A stretch of 64,000 nucleotides of DNA from assembly GCF_023656565.1 (NCBI RefSeq), contig NZ_JAMOKG010000002.1:1494030-1558029 (forward strand). Reading direction: 5' to 3'. Below, piece by piece: positions 42,727 to 56,011 of this stretch (positions are counted from its first letter, which is position 1; every line of letters begins with the position of its first letter). A model generated the notes under the pieces. It was not told where the DNA came from. It did no database searches and saw only the letters and a list, made by a program, of their open reading frames with translations. The position numbers and the translations under genes are program-made. The DNA is from Flavobacterium tyrosinilyticum. GTDB lineage: Bacteria; Bacteroidota; Bacteroidia; Flavobacteriales; Flavobacteriaceae.

Positions 42727-43122
42727 TTATTCAATTTCAAAACTTGATTTTACTTGAATATAACTCTTCTTAGCATCGTCACTTTTAACTAAAAAAATAG
42801 TATAACCTTTGAGATAATCCCAAAGCTCATAATCCCTTAATTTTAATCTTCTGTTTTCATTATAGAATTTAGACGACCTAATAAATTCTTTAAGATTAAT
42901 TTCTTTTGATTTTGTATTGCAAACATTTATCTTTTGAACTTCAGTAAAGTAAAAGCCACCAATACGAGCACCACTTCCATCTTTTATATAATAATTTGGA
43001 TTTTCAGGATATATAGTAATATAATTACTATCATAAGCAAAAAAAAGTGTGTCTTTTACTTTTTCCTGACCTTGAGAATTTATTCCTAGAATACAAGTCA
43101 CTAATAAAATGAATATTTTCAT
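42727..43122 (-). CDS. Small secreted protein, paralog 1
   Basis: From ATG 43120-43122 the 131-residue product has a signal peptide (MKIFILLVTCILGINSQGQ), then KVKDTLFFAYDSNYITI, YYIKDGSGARIGGFYF, EFIRSSKFYNENRRLKL and YTIFLVKSD.....YIQVKSSFEIE. These segments align along the whole length with the next gene, so the two are tandem paralogs. The function is unknown. The pair sits between direct repeats and is A+T-rich, as expected of an acquired module. Confidence 0.65.
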   Translation of the reverse strand: MKIFILLVTCILGINSQGQEKVKDTLFFAYDSNYITIYPENPNYYIKDGSGARIGGFYFTEVQKINVCNTKSKEINLKEFIRSSKFYNENRRLKLRDYELWDYLKGYTIFLVKSDDAKKSYIQVKSSFEIE

Positions 43123-43159
43123 AATTTGTTTTCCAAATTTCAAGCTTTATATTAAATAT

Positions 43160-43582
43160 TTAGTCAAAAATCACAATTGAAATATCAACTTTAATATATT
43201 CGGTTTTTTCATCACTTTCCCTTATCAAAATAATTTTATAATTTTTCATAAAATCGAGCAGTCCTTTTATATCTAATGTTATTTTCCCTTGATTTATAAA
43301 GAATTTTGAATTCCTTATAAAATACTTTAAATCCAATACTTCTGTAGGTTTTAAATTAAATAAAATTTCAGCTTCTTGAAAACAAAATTCGGTATGTCCA
43401 TTTCCGTCTTCAATAAAAAAAGTTTTTGGAATATTCTTGTTTTCAAACAGATAAGAATTATCTATTTTAAAATACAACGTATCTTTTTTTACTTTTTGCT
43501 GCGCTTGTACATTATTTAAAAGAAATAAATACATTATGAGTCTACATCCTATGAAAACAGAGCTTTTAAATTTTGACATCAT
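43160..43582 (-). CDS. Small secreted protein, paralog 2
   Basis: The 140-residue protein has a signal-like N-terminus (IMYLFLLNNVQAQ), then KVKKDTLYFKIDNSYLF, FFIEDGNGHTEFCFQEA, YFIRNSKFFINQGKITL and YKIILIRESDEKTEYIKV, the same order as paralog 1. It is upstream of paralog 1 with a 37-bp gap, suggesting one transcript. No catalytic motif is seen; conserved features are aromatic and strand-forming. It may be an immunity-like or adhesion-type protein, but nothing supports a choice. Confidence 0.65.
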   Translation of the reverse strand: MMSKFKSSVFIGCRLIMYLFLLNNVQAQQKVKKDTLYFKIDNSYLFENKNIPKTFFIEDGNGHTEFCFQEAEILFNLKPTEVLDLKYFIRNSKFFINQGKITLDIKGLLDFMKNYKIILIRESDEKTEYIKVDISIVIFD

Positions 43583-43894: not shown

Positions 43895-43979
43895 AACCTT
43901 ATCATTCAATTTATTACCATTAAATTTGAATAGTATTTCTGCATTCAAAACTGAAAGCAAACTTAATTTTTAGTTAAAT

Positions 43980-44024
43980 AACTATTTTTATAGTTGCGTA
44001 ACTAAAAAAATAGTTGTAGGTTTG
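43980..44024 (+). promoter_or_regulatory. Promoter with two BlaI-type dyad operators
   Basis: TTG (43994-43996), a 20-nt spacer and TAGGTTTG (44017-44024) form a consensus promoter. Two similar dyads overlap it: AACTAT-TTTT-ATAGTT (43980-43995) and AACTAA-AAAA-ATAGTT (44000-44015), with centres 20 bp apart, about two helix turns. This fits repression by the BlaI proteins encoded next. Confidence 0.75.
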
Positions 44025-44041
44025 AATTAAAATTAGAGAAG

Positions 44042-44410
44042 ATGCAGAAGTTAACAAACAAAGAAGAAGAAATCATGATGATTTTATGGAAGCTGAAAAA
44101 AGCTTTCGTAAAAGAAATCCAAGCCGAAATAACAGAAGATCAGCCACATTACAACACATTATCGACTATTGTGCGTAATCTGGAAGAAAAAGGATATGTT
44201 GGACACAATGCTTTTGGAAACACACATCAATACTTTCCTATTATAGCAATTGAAGATTACAGAAAAGGATTTATGAAAACCGCTATCGATAATTACTTCA
44301 ACAGTTCTTATAAAAGTATGGTTTCCTTTTTTGCTAAAGAAGAAAAAATTTCAGCAGATGAATTGCGTGAGATTTTATCAATGATCGAAAATAAAAACGA
44401 AAAAAAATAA
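44042..44410 (+). CDS. BlaI/MecI-family repressor, copy 1
   Basis: The 122-residue winged-helix repressor has KLTNKEEEIMMILWKLKKAF, VKEIQAEITEDQPHYNTLST and IVRNLEEKGYVGHNAFGNTHQYFP (recognition helix and wing), and a C-terminal dimerisation region (ADELREILSMIENKNEKK) that includes the region where BlaR1-type proteases cut in relatives. It likely represses the operon starting at its own gene through the two dyads upstream. It is 7 bp before the M56 protease gene, and a second copy occurs at 46022. Confidence 0.93.
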   Translation: MQKLTNKEEEIMMILWKLKKAFVKEIQAEITEDQPHYNTLSTIVRNLEEKGYVGHNAFGNTHQYFPIIAIEDYRKGFMKTAIDNYFNSSYKSMVSFFAKEEKISADELREILSMIENKNEKK

Positions 44411-44417
44411 TCAGTTT

Positions 44418-45992
44418 ATGGAAGCAGTTTTCATTTACATCGCCAAATCAAGCAGTTTAATGCTAATGTTTTATTGTGCTTACTATTTTTTACTGCGCAA
44501 AGAAACATTTTTCAACAGTAACAGATGGTTTCTTTTATCTGGCTTGGTAGTCTCAGTAATTTTACCATTATTGACTTACACAAAAGTAATATGGATTGAT
44601 GCTGCTCCTAATTTCGATACCAATATCCAAACAACATTAATAAGTAACTCGGACAGCGAATCGGTAGAATTTAATTGGAATTATATTATTCTAGGCTTCT
44701 ATGGGATTGGTCTTATTGTTTTTCTTTTAAAATTGGCAATTGACTTTTATAGTTTGAACGCTATTATAAAAGGAAAAAAAATCAAACAGCAAGCCGATTT
44801 CAAATTTGTAGATATCAACGAAAATATCGCGCCTTTCTCCTATTTTGAATACATTGTGTACAACTCATCACTTTACACCGCATCAGAATTAGAAAGCATT
44901 TTGGAACATGAAAAAGTGCACAGCGATCAAAATCATACTTTTGATGTATTGATTTCGAGAATCTTCAGTATCATTTTCTGGTTCAATCCTATTGTATGGC
45001 TTTACAAAAAGGCAATCACTCAAAATTTGGAGTTTATTGCTGATAGTGAAGCTTCTAAAAAACTTTCAGACAAAAAAGCATATCAATACACGCTTTTAAA
45101 AATAACAACACACGAAAATTGTGTTGCAATCACCAATCATTTTTATCAATCATTAATCAAAAAACGAATTGTCATGTTAAACAAAAATCAATCAAAAATG
45201 AGGAATTCCTGGAAGTATTATCTTATGCTTCCTGCACTTGCAACATTTGTTTTATTATTTCAAGTTGAAGTAATTGCGAAAGAGAAACCACAAATTATAA
45301 AAGAAAACGATTCAAATATTGAATCTGTAGATGTTTTTAAAATCAGCAAAAATTCTACAGATGCCGAATTAAATGAAATCAAGAATAATTTGAAGAAAAA
45401 CCACAATGTGAAATTTGAAATGTCAGAAATTAAGAGAAATGACTCGGACCAACTGACATCTATTACGATCGATATAAAGAAAGGAAAACAACATTCAAAA
45501 TCCATTCAAAATTCGGATAAAGCAATAAATGAATTCGGAGTAATTATTATTACTTATAAAAATGGCGATAAAAAAATAGGAATTCAGACTGTAAATAATT
45601 CTAATGACAAAGAACCTAAAAAAGCAATTAGCAATAAACTAAAAACCGAAACCAATGTTAACACTAATTCTAATACTAGTACAAAAACTAACAGTAATAG
45701 TAGTGCAAATTCTAGCACTACTGTAATTGTAGATAACGACAATAATACGGTTATTACTACTTCTTCTGATGAAGGAACATCTGTTGCCGTTTCAAATGGT
45801 GTAAAAACGAATGTGAAATTAGGTTTTCCGCTTGTAATTTTAGATGGAAAAGATATGCCTTCTGATTTTGATATGAACAGCCTTCCTCCTAGCACGATTA
45901 AATCGGTAAGAGTTTTTAAAAGCTTAGATGCTGTAGCTTTATTTGGTGAAAAAGGCGAGCATGGTATTGTCGAAATTAAAACCAAAAAATAA
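44418..45992 (+). CDS. M56 (BlaR1-type) membrane metallopeptidase, copy 1
   Basis: The 524-residue protein has transmembrane helices at about 5-26, 35-55, 92-115 and 260-278. The cytoplasmic zinc-protease motif HEKVH (164-168) and LEFIADSEA (distal Glu) match BlaR1/MecR1. The penicillin-sensor domain of those proteins is absent. Instead the outer part has a small domain (KISKNSTDAELNEIKNN, about 295-360), an Asn/Ser/Thr-rich linker (about 405-450), and a C-terminal region resembling a TonB-receptor plug strand set (LPPSTIKSVRVFKSLDAVAL, GEHGIVEIKTKK). It should cleave or trigger cleavage of BlaI upon an unknown signal. Confidence 0.9.
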   Translation: MEAVFIYIAKSSSLMLMFYCAYYFLLRKETFFNSNRWFLLSGLVVSVILPLLTYTKVIWIDAAPNFDTNIQTTLISNSDSESVEFNWNYIILGFYGIGLIVFLLKLAIDFYSLNAIIKGKKIKQQADFKFVDINENIAPFSYFEYIVYNSSLYTASELESILEHEKVHSDQNHTFDVLISRIFSIIFWFNPIVWLYKKAITQNLEFIADSEASKKLSDKKAYQYTLLKITTHENCVAITNHFYQSLIKKRIVMLNKNQSKMRNSWKYYLMLPALATFVLLFQVEVIAKEKPQIIKENDSNIESVDVFKISKNSTDAELNEIKNNLKKNHNVKFEMSEIKRNDSDQLTSITIDIKKGKQHSKSIQNSDKAINEFGVIIITYKNGDKKIGIQTVNNSNDKEPKKAISNKLKTETNVNTNSNTSTKTNSNSSANSSTTVIVDNDNNTVITTSSDEGTSVAVSNGVKTNVKLGFPLVILDGKDMPSDFDMNSLPPSTIKSVRVFKSLDAVALFGEKGEHGIVEIKTKK

Positions 45993-46021
45993 AAAGTTTT
46001 AATCTTTTAAATCACTGAGAA

Positions 46022-46390
46022 ATGCAAAAACTGACCAATAAAGAAGAAGAAATCATGCATATTTTATGGAAGCTGAAAAAAGCTTTTGTAAAAGAAATTC
46101 AAGCAGAGATTTTAGAAGATCAGCCACATTATAATACTTTGTCTACCATTGTTCGTAATCTGGAAGAAAAGGGATATGTTGCACATAATGCTTTTGGAAA
46201 TACGCATCAATATTACCCAGCTGTAAGCATCGAAGACTATAGAAAAGGGTTCATGAGCACTGCAATTGACAATTATTTTAATAGCTCATACAAAAGCATG
46301 GTTTCTTTTTTTGCCAAAGAAGAAAAAATCTCGGCAGACGAATTGCGAGAAATATTAGACATGATCGAAAATCCAAAAGCAGGTAAGTAA
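46022..46390 (+). CDS. BlaI/MecI-family repressor, copy 2
   Basis: 122 residues, nearly identical in protein sequence to copy 1. It differs mainly in MHILWK for MMILWK, VAHNAFG for VGHNAFG, QYYPAVSIEDY for QYFPIIAIEDY, and the C-terminus NPKAGK. The synonymous codons are often different, so the duplication is not very recent. No separate operator or promoter lies in the 29 bp before it, so it is expressed from the same transcript as copy 1. Repressor heterodimers are likely. It is 11 bp before the second M56 gene. Confidence 0.93.
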   Translation: MQKLTNKEEEIMHILWKLKKAFVKEIQAEILEDQPHYNTLSTIVRNLEEKGYVAHNAFGNTHQYYPAVSIEDYRKGFMSTAIDNYFNSSYKSMVSFFAKEEKISADELREILDMIENPKAGK

Positions 46391-46401
46391 TCAAAATAGT
46401 T

Positions 46402-48270
46402 ATGGAAGCACTTTTCATTTTTATCTTAAAATCAAGCGGGTTATTAGCAATGTTTTATTTTGCTTACATCTTTTTACTTCGCAAAGAAACTTTTTTTAAC
46501 AGTAGCCGCTGGTTTTTAATTGCGGGATTAATCACTTCTGTGGTATTGCCTTTTGTAGTTTATACGAAAGTGATTTGGGTTGAAGCGCCTCCAGCGCCAG
46601 CGCCAGATCCAATAATTACAACTACAACAACTGATGTAGCAAATATTCCAACTTCAAATCATGAAGCTGCTGTTTATAACACTCAGTATAAGCCAACAAC
46701 TGTTTCTGTTATTGAAGAAGAAAATTTTGAAATCGATTGGACTTTGGTCGCGGCTGTAGTGTACGGAATTGGCTTCGTAGGTTTTATGATCAAATTTGCA
46801 CTTGATTTTTACAGTCTGAATTCTGTTTTAAAAGGAAAAAAGATTGAACTGCAGGAAGATTTTAAATTTATCGATGTTAATGAAAATATAGCTCCTTTCT
46901 CTTATTTCGATTACATTGTATATAACTCATCACTATATACTTCGTCGGAATTAGAAAGTATTTTGGAGCACGAAAAAGTGCACAGCGATCAAAAGCATAC
47001 CATTGACGTTTTGATTTCTAGAATCTTTTGCATTCTATTTTGGTTTAACCCAATTATCTGGCTTTATAAGAAAGCTATTCTGCAAAATCTTGAATTCATT
47101 GCAGATAGTGAAGCTTCTAAAAAAATTGCCGACAAAAAAGCGTATCAATACACACTTTTAAAAATCACAACACACGAAACTTGTGTTGCAATCACCAATC
47201 ATTTTTATCAATCATTAATCAAAAAACGAATTGTCATGTTAAACAAAAATCAATCAAACAAAAGAAATTACTGGAAGTATTCGGCAGTAATACCTGCTCT
47301 TGGTGCATTTGTTCTTTTATTTCAAATAAGAACCATTGCACAAGAAAAGAAACAAGCTGAAGTTGCAACAATCCAAAGAGACACTGTTAAGGATACAGAG
47401 CAAACAATCAAAATTACTAAAAACACGACTGATAAGGAATTAAATGAATTGCCAGGACAATTAAAGGCAAATCATAATTTGGATGTCGAAATTTCGGATG
47501 TAAAAAGAAATACCAAAGAAGAATTGACTGGGATTCAAATCAAAGTAAAATCAGATTCTGGTAAAAAACAAATGATCAGAATTGACGGAGACGAAGCTAT
47601 TAAAGACTGCGAATTGGCAATTGGAACAAACGAAAATGGATCAAAGGCTATTGTAATTAATACTGATGGAAATTTCAGAACACCAATGATTATCAAAAAC
47701 AATAAAGTTATTGTTCGCACTTTTGGAAATGGAGAATCTGATGTTGCAGCTCCTGCACCTCCAACCCCACCAGCATTTCCTTCAGGACCAATGCCTCCTG
47801 TTCCAGCAATTGATATGTCAAAAATGCCGAAACCTCCTGTTGCTCCAAAAAATCCAAAGGATAAAGTAGCAATGGCTAAGTTTGAAAAAGACATGGAAGC
47901 TTTTGGAAAACAAATGGAAGCGTTTGAACCTCAAATGAAAGAATACGAAAAGCAGGTTGAAGCTATCATGTCGCAAAGAGCAGAAGTTTACGAGAAAGAA
48001 ATGGCGAAATATGAAATTGCTATGGAAAAGTTCAGTGCAAACATGGAAAAGTTCAACTATGACTTTAATTTCAAATTCGGAGACGATTCTAAAGACTATG
48101 AAAACAGCATGAAACAATACGAGCAAGACATGAAACAGTATGAGCTTGATATGAAACAACATGCTAAAGATATGAAGCAACATGAAAAAAACATGAAACA
48201 GCATGAAAAAGACATGAAGCAACGTGAAAAAGAGATGAAAGAAATGGAAAAGCAGAATAAAAAAGCTTAA
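46402..48270 (+). CDS. M56 (BlaR1-type) membrane metallopeptidase, copy 2, with coiled-coil tail
   Basis: The 622-residue paralog of the previous M56 protein has the same helices, zinc motif HEKVH (190-194) and LEFIADSEA. A longer Pro/Ala/Thr loop lies at about 57-95. The shared outer domain is present (KITKNTTDKELNELPGQ). The end is different: a Pro-rich linker (PAPPTPPAFPSGPMPPVP), a Met/Glu/Lys-rich helix, and seven consecutive seven-residue repeats starting MKQ or MKE (residues about 570-618). The plug-like region of copy 1 is missing. The tail is likely an extended coiled coil outside the inner membrane. Confidence 0.9.
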   Translation: MEALFIFILKSSGLLAMFYFAYIFLLRKETFFNSSRWFLIAGLITSVVLPFVVYTKVIWVEAPPAPAPDPIITTTTTDVANIPTSNHEAAVYNTQYKPTTVSVIEEENFEIDWTLVAAVVYGIGFVGFMIKFALDFYSLNSVLKGKKIELQEDFKFIDVNENIAPFSYFDYIVYNSSLYTSSELESILEHEKVHSDQKHTIDVLISRIFCILFWFNPIIWLYKKAILQNLEFIADSEASKKIADKKAYQYTLLKITTHETCVAITNHFYQSLIKKRIVMLNKNQSNKRNYWKYSAVIPALGAFVLLFQIRTIAQEKKQAEVATIQRDTVKDTEQTIKITKNTTDKELNELPGQLKANHNLDVEISDVKRNTKEELTGIQIKVKSDSGKKQMIRIDGDEAIKDCELAIGTNENGSKAIVINTDGNFRTPMIIKNNKVIVRTFGNGESDVAAPAPPTPPAFPSGPMPPVPAIDMSKMPKPPVAPKNPKDKVAMAKFEKDMEAFGKQMEAFEPQMKEYEKQVEAIMSQRAEVYEKEMAKYEIAMEKFSANMEKFNYDFNFKFGDDSKDYENSMKQYEQDMKQYELDMKQHAKDMKQHEKNMKQHEKDMKQREKEMKEMEKQNKKA

Positions 48271-48275
48271 TCCTA

Positions 48276-49715
48276 ATGAGAGCCTTACTTACCGTCTCTT
48301 TACTATTGGTTCTTAATTTATCTTTTGGTCAAAAAAATGTTGACAAATCAACAGAACAAAAAATTGACAATTATATAAAAGAAGTAATAGCAATTAATGA
48401 AATTCCTGGTGTGGCATTGGCAGTAATAAAAGATGGTAAAATTGTTTATGAAAAATATTTTGGAAAAGCTTCTATAGAAGACAATAAAGCAGTGGATAAA
48501 AACACTGCTTTTAAAATTTTTTCAACTACCAAATTAATTACCAATGTTGGGGTATTTCAACTTATTGAACAAGGAAAATTATCACTCGAAGACCCTATTT
48601 CAAAATATTTAGAAAACACTCCAAAAGAATGGCAAGAAGTAAAAATTAAAAATTTGCTTTCTCATTCTTCCGGGCTTCCTGATGTTGTTAGGTTTCAAGA
48701 AATTTCAATAACGGCGTCAATTAACGAAAAAATAGCTTTACTGTCTCAAAAACCAATGGATTTTAAAACAGGAAATCAATATCGTTACAATCAAACTAAT
48801 TATTTGTTTCTGGCTAAAATTATCGAAAAAATTACAGGTTTGCCTTTTGAAGAATATATTTTACAAAATCAGTTTCCTTCTATAAAATCAGGTGTTTATT
48901 TTTCTTCGAATTTTGGCGAAACGGTACCCAATAGTGCTTCTAGATACAACTATGATGATCAAACAAAAAAGTACGTTAAAAGCACCTCAAACTTTGGAAC
49001 CGAAGCTCATTCTGCAAACGGTTTAAATATATCTTTGCCGAATTTTATTCTATGGAATGAAAATCTCGATAGAGGTATTTATCTTCAAAAAGAAACCAAA
49101 AATGATATTTGGAAACCGTTTCCGTTTGCCAACCACACAGATCGTTTTGCTTTCGGCTGGGAAATTGTACCGGTTAATAATGTCCTTTCATACGGCTTTA
49201 CTGGTGGCAATGAAACTGCTTTTAGAAAATTTATTGATCGTGATTTAACGATAATCTTTTTATCTAATGGACATAAATATTCGGGCTTATATGTACAAAG
49301 TCAAGTAATTAATCATGTGGCTTCGATTGTAGATAAAACACTTATAGATGAATTTTTATTAGCTGGAGAAAATATCAATCAGAATTTTTTAAAATTAGAT
49401 TTTACAAAAGCGCAACAGAATTATTTAGCCATAAAAAAGAATCATCCTGATTGGGACTTTGAATATCGACTGAATGTTATTGGCTATACATTAATGGATC
49501 ACGGAAGATTGCATGACGGAATAAAAGTCTTAGAGCTTAACGCAAAAGAGAATCCGAAATCTGGAAATGCATTTGACAGTTTGGCTGATGGTTATTTTAG
49601 AAATAATGAATTGGCACTTTCGAAAGAAAACTATCAAAAAGCATTATCTCTTTCTCCAGATAACAATAATGCAAAAGAAATGCTCGAGAAAATCAACAAA
49701 ATAGTAACGAAGTAA
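48276..49715 (+). CDS. Secreted serine hydrolase (class C beta-lactamase fold) with TPR tail
   Basis: The 479-residue protein has a signal peptide (MRALLTVSLLLVLNLSFG). The active-site SxxK is S83-T-T-K86 (FKIFSTTKLITNVGVFQ). At the YxN position the sequence is YNQTNY, so the usual Asn is Gln. The third motif is FTGG rather than HxG/KTG. TPR-like helices follow from about 395 (DWDFEYRLNVIGYTLMDHG, NAFDSLADGYFRNNELALSKENYQKAL). It may be a peptidase or esterase acting on peptidoglycan-like substrates. It is 5 bp after M56 copy 2, so it is in that operon. Confidence 0.87.
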   Translation: MRALLTVSLLLVLNLSFGQKNVDKSTEQKIDNYIKEVIAINEIPGVALAVIKDGKIVYEKYFGKASIEDNKAVDKNTAFKIFSTTKLITNVGVFQLIEQGKLSLEDPISKYLENTPKEWQEVKIKNLLSHSSGLPDVVRFQEISITASINEKIALLSQKPMDFKTGNQYRYNQTNYLFLAKIIEKITGLPFEEYILQNQFPSIKSGVYFSSNFGETVPNSASRYNYDDQTKKYVKSTSNFGTEAHSANGLNISLPNFILWNENLDRGIYLQKETKNDIWKPFPFANHTDRFAFGWEIVPVNNVLSYGFTGGNETAFRKFIDRDLTIIFLSNGHKYSGLYVQSQVINHVASIVDKTLIDEFLLAGENINQNFLKLDFTKAQQNYLAIKKNHPDWDFEYRLNVIGYTLMDHGRLHDGIKVLELNAKENPKSGNAFDSLADGYFRNNELALSKENYQKALSLSPDNNNAKEMLEKINKIVTK

Positions 49716-49757
49716 TCTACACTTTCTTTTAATAAATGAAAAAACATATTTACTAAA

Positions 49758-51191
49758 ATGAAAAAGCTCATTATATTCCTGTTTTTATGTTTTAGCTTTT
49801 CAATTCTAGCGCAGAAGAATACCGCTGAAAAAAGTATTTTTATTGCAATGGACAAAACAGCTTCTCTTTTAATTGGAAAATCAAAAGCCAATTCTATTTC
49901 AATTGGAGTGGTTAAGAATGGAAAAACCTATACCAGACATTACGGCGAAATTGATAAGGGAAAAGAAAACGTTGCGAACAACAACACTGTTTTTGAAGTT
50001 GCTTCTATAACGAAACTATTTACAGGTTTACTGACTGCACAAGCCGTTTTGGAAGGAAAATTGAATCCAGACGATGATATTAGAAAATATATTACAGGCT
50101 CTTATCCAAACTTAGAATATAACGGAACTCCGATCACTATTAAAGATTTAGTTTCTTTTAGAACTGGTTTTGATAAAGATCTTCCAGATACTGCCGAATT
50201 GAGAAAAAACAGAAACGACAGTAGTTATTTGGCTTTTAAAAAGATGGATGAAACGTATAGTCGTGAGAAGTTTTTTGAAGATCTTAAAACTATAAAATTA
50301 GACACTTTACCAGGAACAAAATTCAAGTACAGCAACGGAAGTCTTAATCTTACTGCTCATATTTTAGAAAACGTATATGGCAAAAGCTATGAAACACTTT
50401 TGAAAGAAAATATTTTTTCAAAACTTGACATGCAATCAAGCGGTATAAATTTAAGTCCAAATACTGTTATTGCAAACGGCTATAATCTAAAAGGCGTTCT
50501 AATGCCTAACATTTCAGACAACCTTTGGGGCGCCGCCGGAATGCTAAAAAGTACTTTAAGTGATTTGACTAAATTTATTGCTTATGAGCTTAATACAAAA
50601 AATAAAATTGTTCAAGAATCGCAACGAAATCTACTAAATAGTCCAACAACTTGGAACGGTTATTTCTGGGATTATATTCAAGTGGATGAAAATGGAAAAA
50701 ATTGCTGGAAACACGGCGGCGCTTTTGGAACTCAAAACATGCTGGTTGTTTATCCAGAACGTCAATTAGGAATTTCCATCATCGTAAATATAAGTGATGA
50801 AAATACCGGCAATGCACTAGGTGAAGCCATTACAAGACTCTCAAATGATTTATTGAGTGAAAACAAAAAACAAGCTGGCATTTACGGCTACAAGATCGTA
50901 AACGACAATGTTGTATTTGCTTATGAACATGATAAGAATTTAGATCCGATTTTGGTTAAGAGCGTTTCCATAGCGGGTTCTTTTGACCAATGGAATCCGA
51001 ATGATCAGAATTTTCAAATGATTCAGAAAAGTAAAAATACATTTGAATTATCGGTCCCAAAATCGAAATTTGAAAAGAATAAAACGCATCTTTTCAAATT
51101 TGTCATCAATAAAACGGGATGGATGGAAGCTCCAAAAAATGCCATAAATCGTGAAACCGAAGGCGACGAAAATCTGATTCTCAAAATTTAA
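49758..51191 (+). CDS. Secreted serine hydrolase with C-terminal CBM48/AMPK-like domain
   Basis: The 477-residue protein has a signal peptide (MKKLIIFLFLCFSFSILAQ). The class C beta-lactamase motifs are complete: S83-I-T-K86 (VASITKLFTG), YSN (FKYSNGSLNLTAH) and HGG (CWKHGGAFGTQNML). From about 385 an immunoglobulin-like domain of the glycogen-binding/AMPK-beta type follows (SVSIAGSFDQWNPNDQNFQM, KTHLFKFVINKTGWMEAP). It is more canonical than its upstream neighbour, with only local similarity to it. It is likely the last gene of the BlaI/M56 operon. Confidence 0.88.
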   Translation: MKKLIIFLFLCFSFSILAQKNTAEKSIFIAMDKTASLLIGKSKANSISIGVVKNGKTYTRHYGEIDKGKENVANNNTVFEVASITKLFTGLLTAQAVLEGKLNPDDDIRKYITGSYPNLEYNGTPITIKDLVSFRTGFDKDLPDTAELRKNRNDSSYLAFKKMDETYSREKFFEDLKTIKLDTLPGTKFKYSNGSLNLTAHILENVYGKSYETLLKENIFSKLDMQSSGINLSPNTVIANGYNLKGVLMPNISDNLWGAAGMLKSTLSDLTKFIAYELNTKNKIVQESQRNLLNSPTTWNGYFWDYIQVDENGKNCWKHGGAFGTQNMLVVYPERQLGISIIVNISDENTGNALGEAITRLSNDLLSENKKQAGIYGYKIVNDNVVFAYEHDKNLDPILVKSVSIAGSFDQWNPNDQNFQMIQKSKNTFELSVPKSKFEKNKTHLFKFVINKTGWMEAPKNAINRETEGDENLILKI

Positions 51192-51214: not shown

Positions 51215-51249
51215 AAAGACTTTGCTTTAAACACAAAGTCTTTTTTTTA
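51215..51249 (+). terminator. Terminator of the BlaI/M56/hydrolase operon
   Basis: Arms AAAGACTTTG / CAAAGTCTTT followed by a T run, directly before the next small gene's -7 element. Confidence 0.8.

Positions 51250-53794: not shown

Positions 53795-56011
<2,217 letters not shown>

Follow-up and report, generated by a model that had tools for sequence, protein, structure and literature searches.

An internal leader and putative start codon in duplicated BlaI-linked M56 genes of Flavobacterium point to probable nested genes for secreted tails

A 64-kb window on contig NZ_JAMOKG010000002.1 of Flavobacterium tyrosinilyticum (genome 5.29 Mb) holds an operon in which two genes for BlaI repressors alternate with two genes for M56 metalloproteases of the BlaR1 type; all positions below refer to this window, the whole stretch of DNA that was analysed. 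We consider it likely that the M56 genes of Flavobacteriaceae are genes within genes, in which an internal leader and start codon would give rise to an independent secreted tail (a lipoprotein where the last membrane helix, TM4, has a lipobox), so that the tail would be the main product of an antirepressor operon, with regulator and effector in one frame. The duplicates would have split a half plug from a coiled coil, copy 2 keeping the glutamine of the Q-rule for signal peptidase I that most first copies lost. Judged from the nucleotide and protein sequences, both m56 genes probably give two products apiece, the protease of BlaR1 type and a secreted tail. We observe an operator array, complementary tails, a cleavage motif at TM4, synonymous constraint, the same leader before other ATGs, and stand-alone tail genes.

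Protein domains were assigned by Pfam and NCBIfam profile scans, and folds by AlphaFold2 models compared through Foldseek and structural Z-scores. The four-helix M56 topology and the name TM4 are carried over from BlaR1 by analogy, and labels beginning with L denote compared loci. The features at the centre of the argument are as follows (nt, nucleotides; aa, amino acids).

43960..44015, + strand: BlaI operator array, three AACTA-N6-TAGTT dyads with a 20-bp period, the first with one mismatch
43994..44024, + strand: promoter-like sequence overlapping the operators, with TTG at 43994-43996 (-33) and TAGGTTTG at 44017-44024 (-7), read from the sequence
44042..44410, + strand: BlaI1 repressor (Pfam PF03965, E 1.1e-29; MecI structure, E 2.1e-9)
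44418..45992, + strand: M56_1, BlaR1-like membrane metalloprotease (HEKVH) with half-plug tail (Peptidase_M56, E 1.1e-14)
45129..45188, + strand: internal leader and putative translation-initiation element of M56_1, -45 to +15 of the ATG at 45174, under synonymous constraint
45174..45992, + strand: proposed nested tail gene 1, 272 aa, with a proposed 35-aa signal peptide cut after A287 of M56_1
45318..45590, + strand: folded beta-alpha-beta periplasmic domain, copy 1 (AlphaFold2; ten-residue blocks with a predicted local distance difference test score up to 95)
45831..45983, + strand: half TonB-plug module of M56_1 (profile and AlphaFold2 model)
46022..46390, + strand: BlaI2 repressor, without its own operator (Penicillinase_R, E 5.5e-31)
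46402..48270, + strand: M56_2, BlaR1-like membrane metalloprotease (HEKVH) with Pro-rich and coiled-coil tail (Peptidase_M56, E 2.2e-13)
47191..47250, + strand: internal leader and putative translation-initiation element of M56_2, -45 to +15 of the ATG at 47236
47236..48270, + strand: proposed nested tail gene 2, 344 aa, with a proposed 35-aa signal peptide and a site between A and Q after A313 of M56_2
47392..47664, + strand: folded periplasmic domain, copy 2 (AlphaFold2 model)
48109..48255, + strand: seven coiled-coil heptads of MKQ type, read from the sequence and helical in the model

Each M56 gene contains an element of about 60 nt, absent from the preliminary description of this locus, that covers roughly -45 to +15 of an in-frame ATG just before TM4. 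Among 145 M56 genes codon identity peaks at codons 239-250, where it reaches 0.97 against an expected 0.50; L246 is written TTA and I247 ATC in all 145, and in windows printed wholly outside codons 214-276 the excess over expectation is at most 0.16. Over a 100-nt block of the M56 genes in 42 loci, third-position identity is 0.909 within and 0.906 between genomes (control block 0.629 and 0.620), and because these two values are equal we reject gene conversion as the source of the near-identical block. Beyond the genus, the same nucleotides recur in the majority of 51 M56 genes, all of them with the protein motif SL-K-R-M, while the flanks drift; the exceptions are L223 and L261, with partial loss in L232, L237 and L249.

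The nucleotides from -20 to -5 are invariant or shared by 144 of the 145 genes; positions -15 to -10 are all A, and so is -6. Start sites of F. johnsoniae are described, in excerpts of PMC6847099, as A-rich at -14 to -11, with A at -6, low structure and A favoured at -3. The internal ATG follows the first three of these Flavobacterium rules, the mean unpaired probability being 0.685 at the internal ATG (70 genes) versus 0.482 elsewhere in the same genes. We found no conserved stop or start, as judged by eye and without scoring, that would indicate an overlapping antisense or alternative-frame gene or a slippery-site frameshift. The consensus of Bacteroidetes promoters is TTG/TAnnTTTG, and an inspection by eye, with no scan made, found no TAnnTTTG of an internal vegetative promoter before the internal ATG.

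The leader also occurs outside M56 genes. Its 20-mer core, with at most one mismatch, is present at 129 places in 77 of 100 Flavobacteriaceae genomes (control 0), and the exact 20-mer in three viral contigs; all 132 occurrences were read. Inside M56 genes lie 114 of the 129 genomic occurrences, each with an in-frame ATG, and 15 lie elsewhere. For the non-M56 occurrences an ATG lies in the span between 2 nt ahead of and 9 nt beyond the end of the 20-mer in 16 of 18 (13 of 15 in genomes, 3 of 3 in viral contigs), compared with 672 of 2640 random positions in the same stretches (25%), and none of the 18 falls within a frame that stays open for 60 codons in both directions. Eleven of these 16 ATGs open frames of at least 117 aa, several with signal-peptide-like starts. 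In L041 and L113 a separate tail gene without the protease part starts at this very ATG behind the leader, shortly after the stop of M56_1, and these two are the only leader copies outside a long frame in loci L035-L074, L111-L189 and L220-L289. At L070 a secreted-looking, tail-like protein adjoins the M56 gene. A conserved gene whose product starts MAKQxGIIKLKG (L319, L352 and L292:4267-4998) stands behind the leader 20-mer in L319 and L352.

A signal-peptidase-like site follows TM4, another feature missing from the preliminary description. Of 134 distinct fragments, 133 have an alanine after TM4, and in 123 the residue two places before it is V or T. The pattern [VTIASLG]xA[QK] is found at the end of TM4 in 140 of 161 cases (Q in 95), compared with 17 of 468 other transmembrane segments from these proteins and, in other proteins, 55 of 1001 internal ones (Q in 5 each); in N-terminal signal-like segments it is found in 116 of 197. 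In rows not fully freed of near-copies, the residue after the cleavage alanine is Q in all 51 coil-type second copies and in 49 of 52 single copies, the lone plug-type second copy having K. Copy 2 agrees with the pattern of Bacteroidetes signal peptidase I, a hydrophobic segment followed by a small residue, any residue and A before the Q of the Q-rule (PMC5837995, in excerpt). In 48 M56 proteins of other Flavobacteriaceae, a relaxed lipobox ends TM4 in 41, a site resembling that between A and Q in 3, and neither in 4, while for four further proteins no helix was called at TM4; the relaxed lipobox is absent from all 135 other transmembrane segments of the same proteins. Together with the probable internal start, this conserved signal-peptidase-like site suggests that the tails also exist as secreted products in their own right, a possibility not foreseen in the earlier two-sensor model.

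The two M56 proteins share a zinc-protease domain with the HExxH motif. As had been proposed, they lack a penicillin-binding sensor: neither has a transpeptidase or class D beta-lactamase domain in Pfam at E 0.1. An invariant Phe of the M56 proteins lies two alignment columns from the BlaR1 autocleavage site Ser283-Phe284. The end of copy 1, described earlier as TonB-plug-like, proves to be a half plug, scoring 18.9 bits against Pfam Plug in the window protein (cut-off 23.9); of 21 plug-type M56 proteins that were aligned, 13 match Plug, the best at E 2.7e-13. The Pro-rich linker and seven heptads seen at the end of copy 2 hold in sequence, and the AlphaFold2 model gives two long helices. What had been overlooked is the folded beta-alpha-beta domain that both models share, followed in copy 1 by a disordered linker and the half plug and in copy 2 by a linker and the two helices. 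This domain has no clear structural relative (best Z 3.9), and we claim no family for it. For the half plug Foldseek gives no match at E 0.001, and structural comparison gives weak matches to 8aa4 (Z 2.6, 60 residues, 28% identity, 2.7 A) and to the CirA model 9a36 (Z 3.2, 61 residues, 36% identity, 3.1 A). Neither Pfam nor the model shows a barrel in M56_1, which has the half plug only and does not qualify as a TonB-dependent receptor.

To classify the tails we combined simple coil and proline rules with a half-plug profile made from the ends of first copies; this origin makes the profile favour plugs in first copies, and it misses degenerate repeats. With this bias, 46 of 47 first copies have a plug only and one a plug with a marginal coil; 46 of 47 second copies have a coil only and one, in a three-copy locus, a plug; and the 50 single copies comprise 15 with plug and coil, 15 with plug and 20 with coil (L140 and L142, which like L172 have broken M56 genes, count as single-copy loci here and in the hydrolase counts below). 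Since some single-copy relatives combine both modules in one tail, the duplicates seem to have divided a composite ancestral tail between them, a partition read from these sequences; module gain by shuffling may be the alternative. Among 19 M56 proteins scanned (16 from outside the genus), ten match TonB_C, seven Plug, two Amidase_3 and two CarbopepD_reg_2. By eye we assign the two Amidase_3 matches to BlaI-linked M56 proteins (L225:3123-4787 and L235:2976-4442) whose tail reads as a peptidoglycan amidase. A further BlaI/M56 pair in the F. tyrosinilyticum genome (L053:3088-4679) has a short tail whose end we label, also by eye, as TonB_C-like. In L140:6001-7577 and L142:3975-5593 the copy-1 M56 gene has frame changes, either real or sequencing errors.

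Transcription of the operon appears to be governed from one place. To the perfect dyads at 43980-43995 and 44000-44015 we add a third with one mismatch at 43960-43975, not recorded before. All of 30 chosen loci have at least two perfect dyads 5' of the first BlaI gene, mostly with a 20-bp period; the two dyads of L059 are not adjacent, and those of L056 and L060 lie farther upstream. At up to one mismatch, 73 of 101 genus genomes contain the tandem operator (0 for the reversed control), and two of the matches, without a listed BlaI gene, are at contig edges; in the F. tyrosinilyticum genome the operator is found at this promoter only. The 120 nt 5' of the second BlaI gene contain ACTA-N6-TAGT in none of 51 tandem loci, which bears out the earlier view that only the first BlaI-M56 pair has dyad operators. 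From these patterns the duplicated operon seems to control mainly itself. A wider regulon we reject: allowing three mismatches adds one tandem match in the own genome versus two in the reversed control, and the third exact single operator there lies inside an open reading frame. Single operators with one mismatch are too common to judge (8 in the window; shuffle mean 4.77, with 8 reached by 13 of 100 shuffles).

BlaI1 and BlaI2 match the Penicillinase_R winged helix over their full length (103.6 and 107.7 bits, cut-off 22.6) and are identical at 108 of 117 aligned residues, while third codon positions agree at only 55%, so that the duplication is old and the proteins have been held constant. 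In support of the preliminary description, two repressors this alike should share one operator array, and they are probably interchangeable at the single promoter. BlaI identity is 0.925 within and 0.895 across genomes (reached by 0 of 2000 shuffles), a difference that shared ancestry confounds. At residues 72, 76 and 106 the two copies within a genome tend to agree, a pattern expected from mixed dimers, from conversion or from shared ancestry. Aligned to the MecI cleavage site (from excerpts of PMC9834060), BlaI keeps Phe at P1', but has Phe instead of Asn at P1.

Of the 79 nearest named loci, 78 are from Flavobacterium or Flavobacteriaceae and the remaining one from a Bacteroidota bin, and the locus is common to genomes of the genus, with two BlaI genes 2.0-2.7 kb apart in at least 17 of 101. 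A search of flavobacterial genomes for the tandem BlaI-M56-BlaI-M56 locus, proposed earlier, finds it kept across many Flavobacterium species, in the order MFS, BlaI, M56, BlaI, M56, followed in most cases by EamA and fasciclin. A quick tree of M56 N-terminal parts (145 distinct ones) gathers every one of the 47 first and 47 second copies in a single set of 106 rows (support 93), which also takes in 11 single copies and one third copy. Outside Flavobacterium, L270 (G316:C24:10500-20500) has three tandem M56 genes and L271-L274 have doublets, so M56 genes in tandem are found repeatedly within the family. Between MFS and BlaI, positions 42727-43582 encode two small proteins on the minus strand that have no counterpart at the same place in the other listed loci.

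The six open reading frames of the operon, two BlaI and two M56 genes followed by two serine hydrolases, lie where they had been placed and are confirmed by Pfam, and the gaps before the hydrolases are as short as reported (5 nt from M56_2 to hydrolase 1, 42 nt from hydrolase 1 to 2). The remaining features are these.

48276..49715, + strand: PF00144 serine hydrolase 1 with a signal-peptide-like start (E 4.3e-47), optional cargo
49758..51191, + strand: PF00144 serine hydrolase 2 with a signal-peptide-like start (E 2e-46; best NCBIfam match AmpH, below cut-off), optional cargo
51215..51243, + strand: possible terminator, a 10-bp stem then a T run, found by eye; its loop exceeds the limit of 8 in the terminator scan, which did not report it

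One or two hydrolases are present in 32 of 53 loci with at least two long M56 genes, mostly with gaps below 115 nt, and one in 4 of 51 single-M56 loci, in counts that include some strains twice, as unnamed and as named genomes. Their absence from 21 of the 53 tandem loci makes them optional cargo. Elsewhere in the window, 53795-56011 encodes a collagen-like protein with many copies of a 12-residue repeat.

Taken as a whole, the explanation that we find likely, if a little less so than the nested genes themselves, is a BlaI/M56 antirepressor module that regulates itself, underwent a single duplication in one Flavobacterium clade, and has nested tail genes and feedback from the free tail. The two BlaI proteins would repress one promoter through the AACTA-N6-TAGTT array, as its position and conservation indicate, and each M56 membrane zinc protease, by analogy with BlaR1, would cleave BlaI once its periplasmic tail reports a change in the envelope. 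The conserved leader and the start codon before TM4 would then yield the tail alone, TM4 acting as its signal peptide, to give a half-plug tail from copy 1 and a Pro-rich coiled-coil tail from copy 2, both with the same folded domain. The free tail would most likely be the operon's envelope product, and it may compete or assemble with the tethered tail and so feed back on the protease. From sequence comparison we infer the binding and cleavage of BlaI, initiation at the internal ATG, and the secretion and role of the tail.

Several observations weigh against initiation at the internal ATG and processing at TM4. Position -3 is G in 136 of the 145 genes, not the favoured A. Two non-M56 occurrences of the leader have no ATG in the span, L349, where the mismatch breaks the A run, and L333 in the F. 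tyrosinilyticum genome, where an ATG lies farther down; the frames opened by five of the 16 ATGs look short (28, 42, 44, 49 and 54 aa, that of 49 cut by the end of the stretch); and of six matches to a shorter 13-mer in the own genome, three are inside other open reading frames. The comparison outside the genus took in only genes selected by the protein motif. Copy 1 does not follow the Q-rule, since in the same near-copy-containing rows the cleavage alanine of the 52 first copies is followed by K in 45 cases, by H in two and by Q in five, the window copy having K. In L261 the lipobox is kept without the leader, so the two features can part.

The two-sensor switch proposed in the preliminary description, in which the full-length proteins M56_1 and M56_2 respond to two envelope signals and together relieve repression of the promoter so that the two hydrolases are made, with nothing nested, we regard as unlikely. 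Its single promoter with operators, its shared BlaI operator, the lack of a beta-lactam sensor and the conserved tandem locus all stand, and the complementary tails kept in many species, like the hydrolases close behind in 32 tandem loci, speak for it. The hydrolases do not hold as its fixed output, given the 21 tandem loci without them and the tandem operator at this promoter only, and the switch has no role for the synonymous constraint or the TM4 cleavage site. Less likely still is that the element is a regulatory RNA or DNA site (for an RNA-binding protein, a small RNA or a transcription pause) and that the ATG merely reflects a conserved KKRIxML motif. Here the 16 of 18 non-M56 leaders directly preceding an ATG and the two stand-alone genes starting at it are hard to accommodate, and the element has no Rfam match at E 1; the methionine conserved where the nucleotides are not (L223, L261), the constraint extending to about -45 and the G at -3 would suit such a site.

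Signal peptidase cuts Staphylococcus aureus BlaR1 in the equivalent loop (excerpts of PMC9834060), and with a site between A and Q or A and K at hand, the M56 proteins might be made only at full length and their tails trimmed for turnover in the same way. We think this less probable again, for trimming leaves unexplained both the synonymous constraint and the lipobox variants, in which the tail would be lipidated. A BlaI/BlaR1 system responsive to beta-lactams and equipped with AmpC-like enzymes, as the company of BlaI, M56 and PF00144 genes might suggest, is very improbable: neither M56 protein has a penicillin-binding domain, and the hydrolases score far below the NCBIfam class C and AmpH cut-offs (at best 110.7 bits, against 266 for AmpH).

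Like the S. aureus systems BlaI/BlaR1 and MecI/MecR1, as covered in the same excerpts of PMC9834060, the Flavobacterium system has a Penicillinase_R repressor, an HExxH M56 protease with a C-terminal outer domain, operators at its own promoter and a signal-peptidase site after the last helix. It differs from them in having no penicillin-binding sensor, in its duplication, in a tail of TonB-system or coiled-coil parts, in the probable nested leader and start, and in that its own operon is the only tandem-operator target seen. With other Bacteroidota M56 proteins bearing TonB_C, Plug, CarboxypepD_reg or Amidase_3 tails it shares the link to BlaI, and with those of other Flavobacteriaceae the internal leader and the processing site at TM4, whereas the tails differ and most Flavobacteriaceae examined have a lipobox instead of the site between A and Q. 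The half-plug module of M56_1 recalls SusC/RagA-type TonB-dependent receptors in its weak structural matches, but it sits, without a barrel, on an inner-membrane protease.

BlaR1-type receptors are described as a single polypeptide that fuses sensing and proteolysis (PMC9834060, in excerpt). In the open-licence literature we found no paper that deals with the M56 tails or with internal starts or lipoboxes of these proteins, and the probable nested start and the putative TM4 processing site in m56 genes are new here. If true, a nested start conserved across the family implies production of the outer domain on its own as well, and induction, feedback and annotation of these systems would then have to be read differently. 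The m56 genes would also offer a clean case for the detection of nested genes through synonymous constraint in a phylum without Shine-Dalgarno sites.

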